Virus record (IMG/VR): IMGVR_UViG_3300046458_000085 | Coordinates: 1 to 29,928 of that record | DNA length: 29,928 bases | Direction: 5' to 3' (one strand) | DNA from: a virus | Shown here: in pieces, positions 16,715-25,867 of the stretch | Layout: every line of letters starts with the position of its first letter | Numbering within the stretch: the stretch's first letter is position 1 | Made by a program: the position numbers and the translations under genes | Notes under the pieces: generated by a model | Seen by the model: only the letters and a program-made list of their open reading frames with translations | The model's database searches: none | Told to the model about the DNA's origin: nothing

Positions 16715-16806
16715 ATTCTTTAATTCTTTAATTCGTTATTTTCTTGATCCTCAACCAGAGGCGGCCTATACTCGCCTCACGTTAACGAATTGACGAATTA
16801 ACGAAC
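16715..16806 (+). promoter_or_regulatory. parA promoter flanked by two arrays of 8-bp repeats
   Basis: TTGATC (16744-16749), 17 bases and TATACT (16767-16772) form a good promoter. Just upstream lie three tandem octamers at 16715-16738 (ATTCTTTA, ATTCTTTA, ATTCGTTA). Just downstream of the start lie three octamers in the opposite orientation at 16783-16806 (TAACGAAT, TGACGAAT, TAACGAAC). This is how operators of ribbon-helix-helix partition proteins are arranged and predicts autoregulation by the parG-like product. Confidence 0.75.
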
Positions 16807-16822
16807 AAAGCGAGGGGTTTAC

Positions 16823-17464
16823 ATGGGCAAGCGTATGGGTGTCTTTTCTCAGAAAGGCGGTGTCGGTAAGACGACCATTTGTGAGGCGCTTGGGGTGACC
16901 TACACCGCAGGCGGCTGGGATGTACTGGTGGCCGACTTGGATATTGACCAATCATCCAGTTACGAATGGCTACTTGATCGGCTGCAAAATGAAAAACTTA
17001 CCCCGATCAATGTCCAAGCTTTTGGCACAGCAGCCAGCGCGCTTAAAGCGTCAGAGAAATATGACCTGACCATTTTCGACGGCCGCCCATTAGCCTCATC
17101 AATGACCGCTGAACTTGCCAAGGTCTGCGACCTGATCATCCTGCCAACCGGCATGGCAAAGACTGACATGCGCCCTACAGTTCGCCTCGCCAATACACTG
17201 GTCGACAAACACGGCGTTGATCCTGCTCGCATTGCGTTAGTGTTGAACCATGTAGGTGGCAGCGACAAAGAGTTAGTCGAGTGCCGCAGCTATTTACTGC
17301 AAACCGACTACACGGTATTACCGTCGCTCTACGAACAGACGTGTTATCGACGCGCCCAAGATGGCGGCCTGTCAATCGTCGAAACGCATTTCGCCGGGCC
17401 ACGCGAACAAGCCGACAACCTCATATCCGCAATTGACAGCATGCTGACCAAGCTGTCTAAATAA
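16823..17464 (+). CDS. parA: ParA-type partition ATPase (ParF-like)
   Basis: A 213-residue protein, the size of the short type Ib ParA/ParF ATPases that lack an N-terminal DNA-binding domain. The deviant Walker A box KGGVGKTT lies at residues 11-18, the Walker A' region VADLDIDQSSS at 36-46, and the Walker B region TIFDGRP around Asp85. A later PTGMAKTDMRP and the C-terminal helices are typical too. It moves plasmid copies apart by forming ATP-dependent gradients or polymers on the nucleoid, together with a centromere-binding partner, here the small gene just downstream. GAGGGG precedes the ATG. Its presence in a phage genome suggests inheritance as a plasmid. Confidence 0.9.
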   Translation: MGKRMGVFSQKGGVGKTTICEALGVTYTAGGWDVLVADLDIDQSSSYEWLLDRLQNEKLTPINVQAFGTAASALKASEKYDLTIFDGRPLASSMTAELAKVCDLIILPTGMAKTDMRPTVRLANTLVDKHGVDPARIALVLNHVGGSDKELVECRSYLLQTDYTVLPSLYEQTCYRRAQDGGLSIVETHFAGPREQADNLISAIDSMLTKLSK

Positions 17465-17465
17465 T

Positions 17466-17489
17466 TAACGAATTGACGAATTAAAGATT
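17466..17489 (+). repeat. Octamer array between parA and parG-like gene
   Basis: Three tandem units: TAACGAAT, TGACGAAT, TAAAGATT (the last degenerate). They start just after the parA stop and end before the Shine-Dalgarno of the next gene, so they may act as operator or centromere. Confidence 0.75.
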
Positions 17490-17858: not shown

Positions 17859-18113
17859 TTACTGCTCGACGGCAAACAACCGGACGCCGGCCTTATCGGC
17901 GAACTCTGCCAGAGTGTCCAGCTTTGCCCAGGTACGCACCGGCTCGCGCTGCGAACGGATGGTGTGCCACTCCGAAGTTGGCCCCCCCAAACGAAAATAG
18001 AAGGCCCACTGCTCGCCCTTGCGCGTCATCACCCGCGCGGCCTTACTCTCTCGAACAGCCCCGGCGCGCACCAGATCGAGAAAATTGCCCTCTTCGTAGC
18101 CCTTTCGCTTCAT
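17859..18113 (-). CDS. Small unknown protein, 84 residues
   Basis: A basic, compact protein with MKRKGYEEGNFLDLVRAGAVRESKAARVMTRKGEQWAFYFRLGG in its first half and WHTIRSQREPVRTWAKLDTLAEFADKAGVRLFAVEQ in its second (residue 48 on). The pattern of two strands around a WxF/WhT motif and a helix recalls small conserved proteins of Pseudomonas plasmids and integrative elements, but I cannot name it. It is the last gene of the accessory operon; its ATG overlaps the upstream stop (ATGA). Confidence 0.6.
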   Translation of the reverse strand: MKRKGYEEGNFLDLVRAGAVRESKAARVMTRKGEQWAFYFRLGGPTSEWHTIRSQREPVRTWAKLDTLAEFADKAGVRLFAVEQ

Positions 18114-23913: not shown

Positions 23914-24240
23914 TTAAAGGTGGGTATCGAGGCCGGTAAGGCGAGTGAAGGCGCGCTGCAGATCCTCGCAATAAACTCCGTCCTCCCGGGCCTTTTCCTT
24001 GAAGTCGAGGCGCGCCCAGCGGCCGGCGATCACGTCGTAGGTGTCCATGGCATTCAGCTCAACGCGGATCATGTTCACGCCGCCCCGGGCGAAGTGCGCC
24101 GGCAGCTTGAATTGCAGACCTCGGGAGGTAGCCGTCAGCTCACGGGCGCCGGTCATCACCATGAAACGGCGGGCGCCGAGCTGTTCAAGAATGGTCGCGG
24201 CGACTTGCTGGGCATTTGTCAGGGGGCTAGCTTGTGTCAT
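23914..24240 (-). CDS. Conserved plasmid/phage protein, 108 residues
   Basis: It starts MTQASPLTNAQQVAATILEQLGARRFMVMTGARELTA in outline. The strand-loop-strand part RRFMVMTGARELTATSRGLQFKLP and the later GVNMIRVELNAMDTYDVIAGRWA are those of a small protein often seen in phages and plasmids, whose function is unknown. It ends with YCEDLQRAFTRLTGLDTHL. Its Shine-Dalgarno GGAG is the right arm of a leader hairpin (24244-24292), and an octamer array lies just upstream of that. This predicts two layers of control, by the ribbon-helix-helix protein and by RNA folding. Confidence 0.65.
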   Translation of the reverse strand: MTQASPLTNAQQVAATILEQLGARRFMVMTGARELTATSRGLQFKLPAHFARGGVNMIRVELNAMDTYDVIAGRWARLDFKEKAREDGVYCEDLQRAFTRLTGLDTHL

Positions 24241-24243
24241 CGG

Positions 24244-24292
24244 GTCTGCTCCGGTGGGCGGCCTTGGCGTAATACCCGGCCTTGGAGCAGAC
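24244..24292 (-). promoter_or_regulatory. Leader hairpin hiding the ribosome binding site (copy 1)
   Basis: In the mRNA, GTCTGCTCC (24292-24284) can pair perfectly with GGAGCAGAC (24252-24244). The second arm includes the GGAG Shine-Dalgarno of the gene starting at 24240. The 31-base loop contains two AAGGCC elements that could form an inner GGCC stem. A closely related loop with a different but still pairing stem lies at 25123-25174. Confidence 0.65.
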
Positions 24293-24302
24293 TTTAAAAT
24301 CA

Positions 24303-24342
24303 TTTCGTTAATTCGTCAATTCGTTATTTCGTTAATTCGTTA
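24303..24342 (-). repeat. Octamer array of five units
   Basis: TTTCGTTA, ATTCGTCA, ATTCGTTA, TTTCGTTA, ATTCGTTA in perfect tandem (plus-strand reading). It overlaps the stop of the gene at 24324 and encodes its last residues NELTK, and it lies just upstream of the leader of the gene at 24240. Confidence 0.85.
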
Positions 24343-24737
24343 TCAACCTTTGGCGCCTCGGCCAGCCCGGCGTAGATGCTCAGTAGACGCCACACCGCAT
24401 AGGGAGGTTCACCGTCACCGCCAATCCATCGCCGCACCTTTGGCTGCGACACACCGACCAGCATGCCGGCCTGACCCGCCGTCAGCCTCGCGACCCGTAG
24501 TAGCTCGCGAAACTCGTCACTGGTAGGCGGCGACCAACCCGGCGCGTAGGCATCAAACAACCCGGGACGATTCAACGCCAGTTCCTGTCGCACCTGGGCG
24601 GCGGTCATCGAGCGCGGAGGGTCGCCCGGGATTTCCAATTGTTCAGCGTCCAAGCGAAGCGCGGCGCGCATCGCTTCCCACAAATCAGGCGCCTCAAATT
24701 CTTCGCGTGACCCGTCACGCCGCAACAAAGCAAACAT
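24324..24737 (-). CDS. Helix-turn-helix regulator, 137 residues
   Basis: It starts MFALLRRDGSREEFEAPDLWEAMRAALRLDA in outline. The C-terminal third has a helix-turn-helix of XRE type: TSDEFRELLRVARLTAGQAGMLVGVSQPKVRRWIGG, with the Q-A-G-x-L-V-G-V-S-x-x-x-V-x-x-W pattern. TTGGAGG lies seven bases before the ATG. The gene ends NELTK, encoded by the octamer array. It could control copy number or nearby genes; it lies between two genes that share leaders and arrays. Confidence 0.7.
   Translation of the reverse strand: MFALLRRDGSREEFEAPDLWEAMRAALRLDAEQLEIPGDPPRSMTAAQVRQELALNRPGLFDAYAPGWSPPTSDEFRELLRVARLTAGQAGMLVGVSQPKVRRWIGGDGEPPYAVWRLLSIYAGLAEAPKVDNELTK
24707..24718. repeat. GTGACCCGTCAC palindrome
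   Basis: Inside the first codons of the 137-residue regulator gene. Confidence 0.6.
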
Positions 24738-24759
24738 CCCTCAGCCTCCAATGCTAAAC

Positions 24760-24778
24760 CGCCGGCAGTGCCGGCGGT
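24760..24778 (-). terminator. Hairpin before the 137-residue regulator
   Basis: CCGCCGGCA and TGCCGGCGG flank a one-base centre, followed by TTTAGC on the minus strand. With a short T-run it is a weak terminator or attenuator between the array at 24779 and the Shine-Dalgarno. Confidence 0.45.
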
Positions 24779-24810
24779 TGTCGTTATTTCGTTATTTCGT
24801 TAAATCGTTA
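24779..24810 (-). repeat. Octamer array of four units
   Basis: TGTCGTTA, TTTCGTTA, TTTCGTTA, AATCGTTA in tandem (plus-strand reading). It overlaps the stop of the gene at 24792, encoding its last residues NDLTK, and lies upstream of the regulator starting at 24737. Confidence 0.82.
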
Positions 24811-25121
24811 TTTGCTAATCGGTCGGGGCAATAGCGCACCTTGACCGACACACCGTCATGCCAGCACGTCCAACCGGACGGCGAGGCCAGCAGCCCCACG
24901 CGGCCATAATCCTCGCACAGATAATAGCCTTGAGCCTCCAACCAAATGCCAATCCCCACCAACTGCACACGGTCGACCTCGGTTTGCTTGCGAAATTCAG
25001 GCACGGCCAGCATCAGGCAATCGCGTTGCGTTCCTCCGGCAATACGAACATTGAGCTGGATAGCGTAACGCTCAAAAAACGCCGCTTTCAAAGCGGCCAC
25101 ATGCGGTGCTTGTTTGGTCAT
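24792..25121 (-). CDS. Unknown protein, 109 residues
   Basis: It starts MTKQAPHVAALKAAFFERYAIQLNVRI. A compact alpha/beta sequence follows (RDCLMLAVPEFRKQTEVDRVQLVGIGIWLEAQGYYLCEDYG), ending with WTCWHDGVSVKVRYCPDRLANNDLTK in outline. There is no known family. Its start follows a leader hairpin (25123-25174) and an octamer array (25184-25215), the same order as for the gene starting at 24240. Its product may act in replication or partition, since it is the gene nearest to the origin side of repA. Confidence 0.6.
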   Translation of the reverse strand: MTKQAPHVAALKAAFFERYAIQLNVRIAGGTQRDCLMLAVPEFRKQTEVDRVQLVGIGIWLEAQGYYLCEDYGRVGLLASPSGWTCWHDGVSVKVRYCPDRLANNDLTK

Positions 25122-25122
25122 C

Positions 25123-25174
25123 GGTTGAACCCCGGAGTGCGGCCTTGACGTAATGCCCGGCCTTGGGGCGAACC
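25123..25174 (-). promoter_or_regulatory. Leader hairpin hiding the ribosome binding site (copy 2)
   Basis: In the mRNA, GGTTCGCCCC (25174-25165) pairs with GGGGTTCAACC (25133-25123) with a small internal loop. The GGGG of the second arm is the ribosome binding site of the gene starting at 25121. The loop is 31 bases as in copy 1 and identical at about 27 positions, while the stem bases differ and still pair. Confidence 0.62.
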
Positions 25175-25183
25175 TTATTCCCG

Positions 25184-25215
25184 CTTCGTTATTTCGTCAA
25201 TTCGTTATTTCGTTA
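25184..25215 (-). repeat. Octamer array of four units
   Basis: CTTCGTTA, TTTCGTCA, ATTCGTTA, TTTCGTTA in tandem (plus-strand reading). With the leader next to it, this is a second copy of the array-leader unit at 24244-24342. Confidence 0.85.
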
Positions 25216-25867
25216 TCTTTTATTTGGACGCGCGGATCTGCGCAGCACGGGAGGGCGGCCGCAGCGATCGCACGCACGCGACCACTCGCGCAGGGCGGTG
25301 ATGGCATGGATCGTTTGAGCAATCGCCCCAGACAAGCGCTGCCGAGCCAGCAGGCCGACAAAGAACGTAAGCACACCCCCCTCACTGTCGACTGGAGCGC
25401 TTGCGCGACCGACTGGCCGAAGGCGGCGCGTGAAGAAGCGAAGGGCCGCCACGCGGTACGGCGTCGGGCTCGGTCCAGGTGCGGCTCACAGCGACTGGAA
25501 GGCGCCTCGCTGACGGAACGGCGGCATCACTGACGCCGAGCTGTTCCTTGCCCCGCGCCTAGAGGCGCGAAGTGGGCAGGCATATTTATTTCGTCAGACC
25601 GTCATGCACCGTTGGCATGGTTTATGAGCTTTAAAGGCTCTTTCTTTATGCCTTGCGGTACCACTACACAGGAAAACTTGCAGCTTTTAAAAAACAAGGC
25701 TCATTGCTCGGCCGGCGCCGGCAACTTTTTTGCGCTGCGCGGACGGATCAAGGGTCAAGATCGAGAGAAGCGGGGGAGATTTGCAGGCCCTGTGCCGCCG
25801 CTGGGGGCGTTTACAGGTTGCGGACGAACGAAAGCACCGCCTGACGCGGTGCTGGTTGTGGCGGGGG
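25216..25867. other. Gene-free stretch downstream of repA, candidate oriV
   Basis: I see no convincing gene in these 650 bases. A hairpin (AGCACCGC/GCGGTGCT, about 25832-25852) follows the repA stop. An AT-rich part spans roughly 25580-25700. A perfect stem CGCGCCT/AGGCGCG lies near 25554-25569. In IncFII-type plasmids the origin lies downstream of repA after a CIS segment, which fits here. I found no perfect DnaA box (TTATNCACA), so the origin call is by position. Confidence 0.45.

Follow-up and report, generated by a model that had tools for sequence, protein, structure and literature searches.

Leaders with a covarying 5'-terminal hairpin and a probable read-through-silencing stem in a group of Pseudomonas phages

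In the fold-back inhibition of the IS10/Tn10 transposase, transcripts that enter the element from outside fold back on the start region, and the mRNA made from the element's own promoter does not. In bacteriophage T4, the genes e (lysozyme), soc and 49 possess initiation hairpins which hide the ribosome binding site on long transcripts from upstream, and on these only (PMC3014915, PMC2988022). The genes of I-TevI, I-TevII and I-TevIII, segB and Aeh1 mobE have a structure that sequesters the ribosome binding site on early or middle read-through RNA, and in homing endonuclease leaders of the I-TevI type the transcripts from the late promoter lack part of this structure (PMC2988022). The mRNAs of ompA and papA carry 5'-terminal stem-loops a few nucleotides from the end, which can stabilise the mRNA according to references given in PMC3997798.

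The window analysed here, the 29,928 nucleotides of IMG/VR record IMGVR_UViG_3300046458_000085, contains two leaders which we take, with a probability of about two in three, to be read-through silencers of the T4 lysozyme or I-TevI type, the outer stem masking the Shine-Dalgarno (SD) sequence on read-through RNA only. This reading is well supported for the leader at 24240 and weaker for that at 25121. Probably only messages from the gene's own promoter are translated, and the arrangement recurs in about twenty relatives.

The two leaders, their genes and their relatives

Both leaders reported in a preliminary description of this DNA were found on the minus strand with the arms given there, and their 31-nt loops agree at 27/31 positions (Table 1). 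The conservation claimed for the loop also holds, with two pattern matches in the window against none expected by shuffling; for a 26-nt loop core, too, there are two occurrences in the window and none after shuffling. The genes follow each other head to tail on one strand in the order gene 2, HTH gene, gene 1.

Table 1. Coordinates of the features at the two leaders
Feature	Position	Strand	Remarks
Leader 1	24297-24240	minus	upstream of gene 1, ATG 24240
Putative operator of leader 1	24308..24343	minus	tandem octad array, AACGAAWT-type, period 8; overlaps leader-1 promoter
-35 box, leader 1	24314..24319	minus	TTGACG, within an octad
-10 box, leader 1	24291..24296	minus	TAAAGT
Left stem arm, leader 1	24284..24292	minus	GTCTGCTCC; overlaps -10 box and discriminator; expected in read-through RNA only
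5'-terminal hairpin, leader 1	24260..24283	minus	GGCC-G-GGT-ATTAC-GCC-AA-GGCC; predicted transcription start 24283
Right stem arm, leader 1	24244..24252	minus	GGAGCAGAC, SD inside
Gene 1	23914..24240	minus	108 aa, phrog_9437; relatives on conjugative and phage-type plasmids
Helix-turn-helix (HTH) gene	24324..24737	minus	137 aa, between both leaders; no terminator before leader 1
Leader 2	25178-25121	minus	upstream of gene 2, ATG 25121
Octad array of leader 2	25185..25216	minus	tandem; overlaps leader-2 promoter
-35 box, leader 2	25195..25200	minus	TTGACG
-10 box, leader 2	25172..25177	minus	TAAGGT, 17-nt spacer
Left stem arm, leader 2	25165..25174	minus	GGTTCGCCCC; overlaps -10 box and discriminator
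5'-terminal hairpin, leader 2	25141..25164	minus	GGCC-G-GGC-ATTAC-GTC-AA-GGCC; predicted transcription start 25164
Right stem arm, leader 2	25123..25133	minus	GGGGTTCAACC, across ribosome binding site
Gene 2	24792..25121	minus	109 aa, no family; confined to this phage group

Distant relatives of gene 1 are spread over 882 plasmid records, the majority being conjugative plasmids of Enterobacteria (E. coli, Salmonella), and one of these plasmid relatives sits near ardA. Gene 2 gave no relatives when the phage and plasmid collections of GenBank were searched. The HTH gene has a strong leader hairpin of its own (AACCGCCGGC/GCCGGCGGTT, 24757-24779, z -4.6), which is kept in the octad relatives and at which no promoter box was noticed. 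A terminator-like sequence, GCCGCTTTGAAAGCGGC-GTTTTTT, lies at 25081-25097 within the early codons of gene 2; its possible function as an intragenic attenuator was discarded, since it is present in the window but not conserved among the relatives.

The loop core and both proteins led to about 25 related IMG/VR phage records to Pseudomonas isolate genomes, where the matches lie on separate 36-40 kb contigs (L053, L054, L055, G058), and to plasmid pHN2. Both types of leader are present in P. fluorescens HKI0874. A covariance search over phages and plasmids with model R1, built from 42 leaders, gave further copies with compensatory changes, namely one to four per genome in 24/25 phage records searched whole, as well as matches in plasmid pHN2; in the exceptional phage record (G008) this position is taken by a different hairpin. 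There was no R1 match in pA506 or in the Delftia plasmid. When the leader DNA itself was compared, no relatives were recovered from the phage records, and the plasmids yielded pHN2 with the leader and pA506 without it. Strong copies occur in only 2/399 Pseudomonas genomes, both on 36-40 kb contigs; five weak matches among the 399 were unconvincing, the one that was read having no promoter and the other four being missed by the pattern used. In pHN2 (NZ_CP085886.1, 82 kb), gene 1 with its leader is found twice, near 34 kb and 75 kb and 41.2 kb apart; the plasmid is probably a dimer of a 41-kb phage-plasmid. Tail and lysis genes lie near these copies of gene 1. No family of Rfam 15 matches at the gathering score, in agreement with the earlier statement that no named RNA family has this shape.

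Promoters, octads and the inner hairpin

The alignment at the start of the loop of 57 leaders, chosen by the RNA model with promoters ignored, revealed the element TTGnnn-16/17 nt-TAnnnT at 6-7 nt before the loop in 56/57 leaders, with C at position -1 in 56/57 and a purine at +1. On the evidence of this alignment each leader is preceded by a promoter of the sigma70 type, which with high confidence overlaps the left stem arm, and the simplest conclusion is that the first A of AAGGCC is the first nucleotide of the gene's own mRNA. The left arm is formed by the end of the -10 box and the discriminator and should therefore be absent from this mRNA. What had been described as a 31-base loop would then be the actual mRNA leader of the gene's own transcript, with a covarying hairpin of its own. 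For the promoter of leader 2, simple scoring favoured an offset hexamer by one point; TAAGGT was chosen as the -10 box from its spacing and from the TAnnnT signature common to all leader classes.

The -35 box lies within a tandem 8-bp array of the AACGAAAT type, the octad at -35 reading TTGACG. Other subfamilies display a different octad (TTAGCTAA type; AACGCAAT in L028) with the same promoter geometry. The octads upstream of genes 1 and 2 vary by subfamily among AACGAAAT, TTAGCTAA, AACGGAAT and AACGCAAT (L022, L023, L036, L063, L028), and these differences could reflect different repressor specificities. The TTAGCTAA octad presumably resembles the core of the KorA operator. A ParA-like gene (16805-17464, plus strand) is surrounded by the same octads, on both strands, at 16716-16805 and 17463-17487, where they stand downstream of a TATACT -10-like box; they are also found near a KorA-like gene (17859-18113, minus strand; NCBIfam KorA, well below cut-off). 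Their distribution suggests one repressor for several promoters of the phage.

The transcribed stretch forms a 7-bp hairpin, GGCC-G-GGC-(loop)-GCC-AA-GGCC. In 42 distinct sequences, pairing held for 99.3% of the cells, and both sides had changed in 4/7 pairs (in the outer helix C-G became U-A, in the inner helix C-G became G-C and G-C became A-U). None of 500 shuffles matched the paired percentage or the covariation score, slid registers gave at most 48% pairing, and RNAalifold, unaided, returned the same seven pairs. A conserved coding peptide in this stretch, whose frames are partly open, was rejected, because its insertions, deletions and compensatory changes agree with RNA pairing rather than with a reading frame.

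Leaders that lack the outer stem have retained the hairpin, and thus it has a role of its own. Two nucleotides separate it from the predicted 5' end, a position matching that of 5'-terminal stabilising stem-loops, and protection of the mRNA 5' end from decay appears the likeliest role, although confidence in any specific role is low. It is possible, if rather unlikely, that the hairpin is the target of a phage-encoded regulator binding RNA or RNA polymerase, which together with the octad repressor would control a regulon of one to four leaders per phage; if true, the leaders would constitute a new family of cis-regulatory RNAs, with a single short sequence being at once promoter, 5'-end hairpin and read-through silencer. 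Neither the sequence nor the length of the hairpin loop is constant, an argument against its being a recognition site; the resemblance of some loops to the MS2 operator was put down to chance, since the loops vary freely.

The outer stem and its explanation

The outer stem covers the SD of the downstream gene in the predicted fold, with covariation in the relatives. The earlier proposal of a selected RNA structure with a covarying stem over the SD is supported; the two copies in the window amount to a single comparison and are no proof of covariation alone, and the relatives carry this claim. The fold of leader 1 is much more stable than those of shuffled sequences (-25.9 kcal/mol against -15.3, z -3.7, 0/200 shuffles). 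The perfect 9-bp stem of leader 1 is found in 16/16 copies from octad phages, with z about -5 against shuffled arms. Its arms are nearly invariant, so that the covariation of leader 1 rests on one double change, GTCTGCTCC/GGAGCAGAC versus GTCAGCTCC/GGAGCTGAC (CTGC/GCAG to CAGC/GCTG).

The stem of leader 2 in the window is interrupted by an internal loop (GGTT/AACC plus CCCC/GGGG) and, taken alone, its fold is not better than that of shuffled sequences (-20.8 kcal/mol, z -1.2, 25/200 shuffles). Among the relatives there are ten different right arms, and pairing with the own arm (-11.2 kcal/mol) was better than with swapped arms (-9.95 kcal/mol; 0/5000 permutations, which leave the relatedness among the phages in place); p was 0.013 when each of the ten distinct right arms was counted once and 0.06 on the discriminator alone. 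In the TTAGCTAA subfamily, own and swapped arms were not clearly different (p 0.09) and pairing was at the shuffled level.

At gene 1, the stem occurs without a terminator in 16/16 copies. The gene 1 copies of the TTAGCTAA subfamily are without the stem; directly before the promoter, 7/8 of them show a clear intrinsic terminator of the GGTCGCC...GCGGCCTTTTTT type, and the remaining copy (L026) was not scored as having one. Over all leaders, an upstream terminator accompanies 0/29 with a strong stem versus 11/28 without; the Fisher p of 1e-4 is optimistic because the lineages are not independent, and the exclusion is largely a contrast of two lineages and not a set of independent events. Neither stem nor terminator is present in L051, L052, L063 and L065.

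The fact that the inner hairpin is found in all classes and the outer stem in octad phages only might mean that the hairpin alone is functional, in mRNA stability or as a site for a phage regulator, the outer stem being a by-product of the constraints on promoter and SD. We consider this unlikely: in the stemless phages these same positions, at the promoter and beside the SD, show free variation, which indicates that these constraints do not dictate GTCTGCTCC or CAGAC, and the z of the leader-1 stem against shuffled arms stands against it as well.

Alternatively, transcription might start further upstream, with the left arm included in the normal transcript and the stem serving as a switch opened by a protein, a small RNA, temperature or translation. 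Such a switch would account for a stem that is selected and covers the SD, but it seems quite unlikely, given that the -10 box falls on the left arm at a fixed spacing to the -35 box in all leader classes, the stemless included, and that no alternative -10 is available close upstream (a TAnnnT hexamer ending 17-44 nt before the loop was found in 0/33 octad leaders). The preliminary description had regarded the stem as the normal state of the leader, awaiting a protein, a small RNA or translation; the coincidence of the left arm with the conserved -10 box and discriminator speaks against this. The observation made in that description is confirmed, and its interpretation partly supported. That the outer inverted repeat is instead a DNA operator, with a dimeric repressor on two half-sites flanking the start region, would suit the perfect inverted repeat at the leader-1 promoter of 16 phages, but is very improbable, as the half-sites of leaders 1 and 2 differ in sequence, the leader-2 arms differ among phages with pairing retained, and the octad arrays already resemble the operator.

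Under the preferred reading, that of a read-through silencer, the sigma70-type promoter with its -35 box in the octad operator array would start the own mRNA at the A of AAGGCC, as deduced from the 57 aligned leaders. This mRNA would be devoid of the left arm and, as the covariation indicates, its 5' end would fold into the small hairpin, the SD being predicted to stay relatively open. RNA derived from upstream would carry the left arm, form the long stem and hide the SD; for leader 1 the predicted source of such RNA is the contiguous gene 2 and HTH gene. If the outer stem acts on read-through RNA only, the gene would be translated mainly when its own promoter fires, presumably under a repressor binding the octads. 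The predicted openness of the SD of leader 1 falls from 0.50 in its own mRNA to 0.25 with 40 nt of upstream sequence added; that of leader 2 hardly shifts on average (0.54 in its own mRNA versus 0.47 in read-through RNA). Confidence that the outer stem silences read-through is moderate for gene 1 and lower for gene 2.

Comparison with described systems

Such an arrangement has been described for T4 e and I-TevI, and the class of mechanism is thus already known. T4 e, soc and 49 rely on late promoters and timing; the present leaders belong to a temperate phage group, have octad operators at promoters of the sigma70 type and contain, unlike the T4 genes, a second conserved hairpin within the loop. 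I-TevI, I-TevII, I-TevIII, segB and Aeh1 mobE involve other genes, hosts and promoters, and we know of no sequence relation between the homing endonuclease leaders and these leaders. IS10/Tn10 differs in being a transposon element end with antisense control and not a leader family of several genes. In comparison with ompA and papA, the hairpin is short, with a 7-bp stem and conserved GGCC/GGCC, and its stabilising effect is a candidate only.

The family represented by R1, which is not described in Rfam, differs from the known class in its phage group, in sigma70-type promoters embedded in operators, in its use at one to four genes of each genome and in the conserved hairpin inside the loop. 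Related phages appear to use a terminator for the same problem, which provides a natural experiment on the insulation of neighbouring genes in compact genomes. These data suggest that the strategy known from T4, by which a message is translatable only if started at its own promoter, is also employed by a group of temperate Pseudomonas phages, in control genes packed without terminators.
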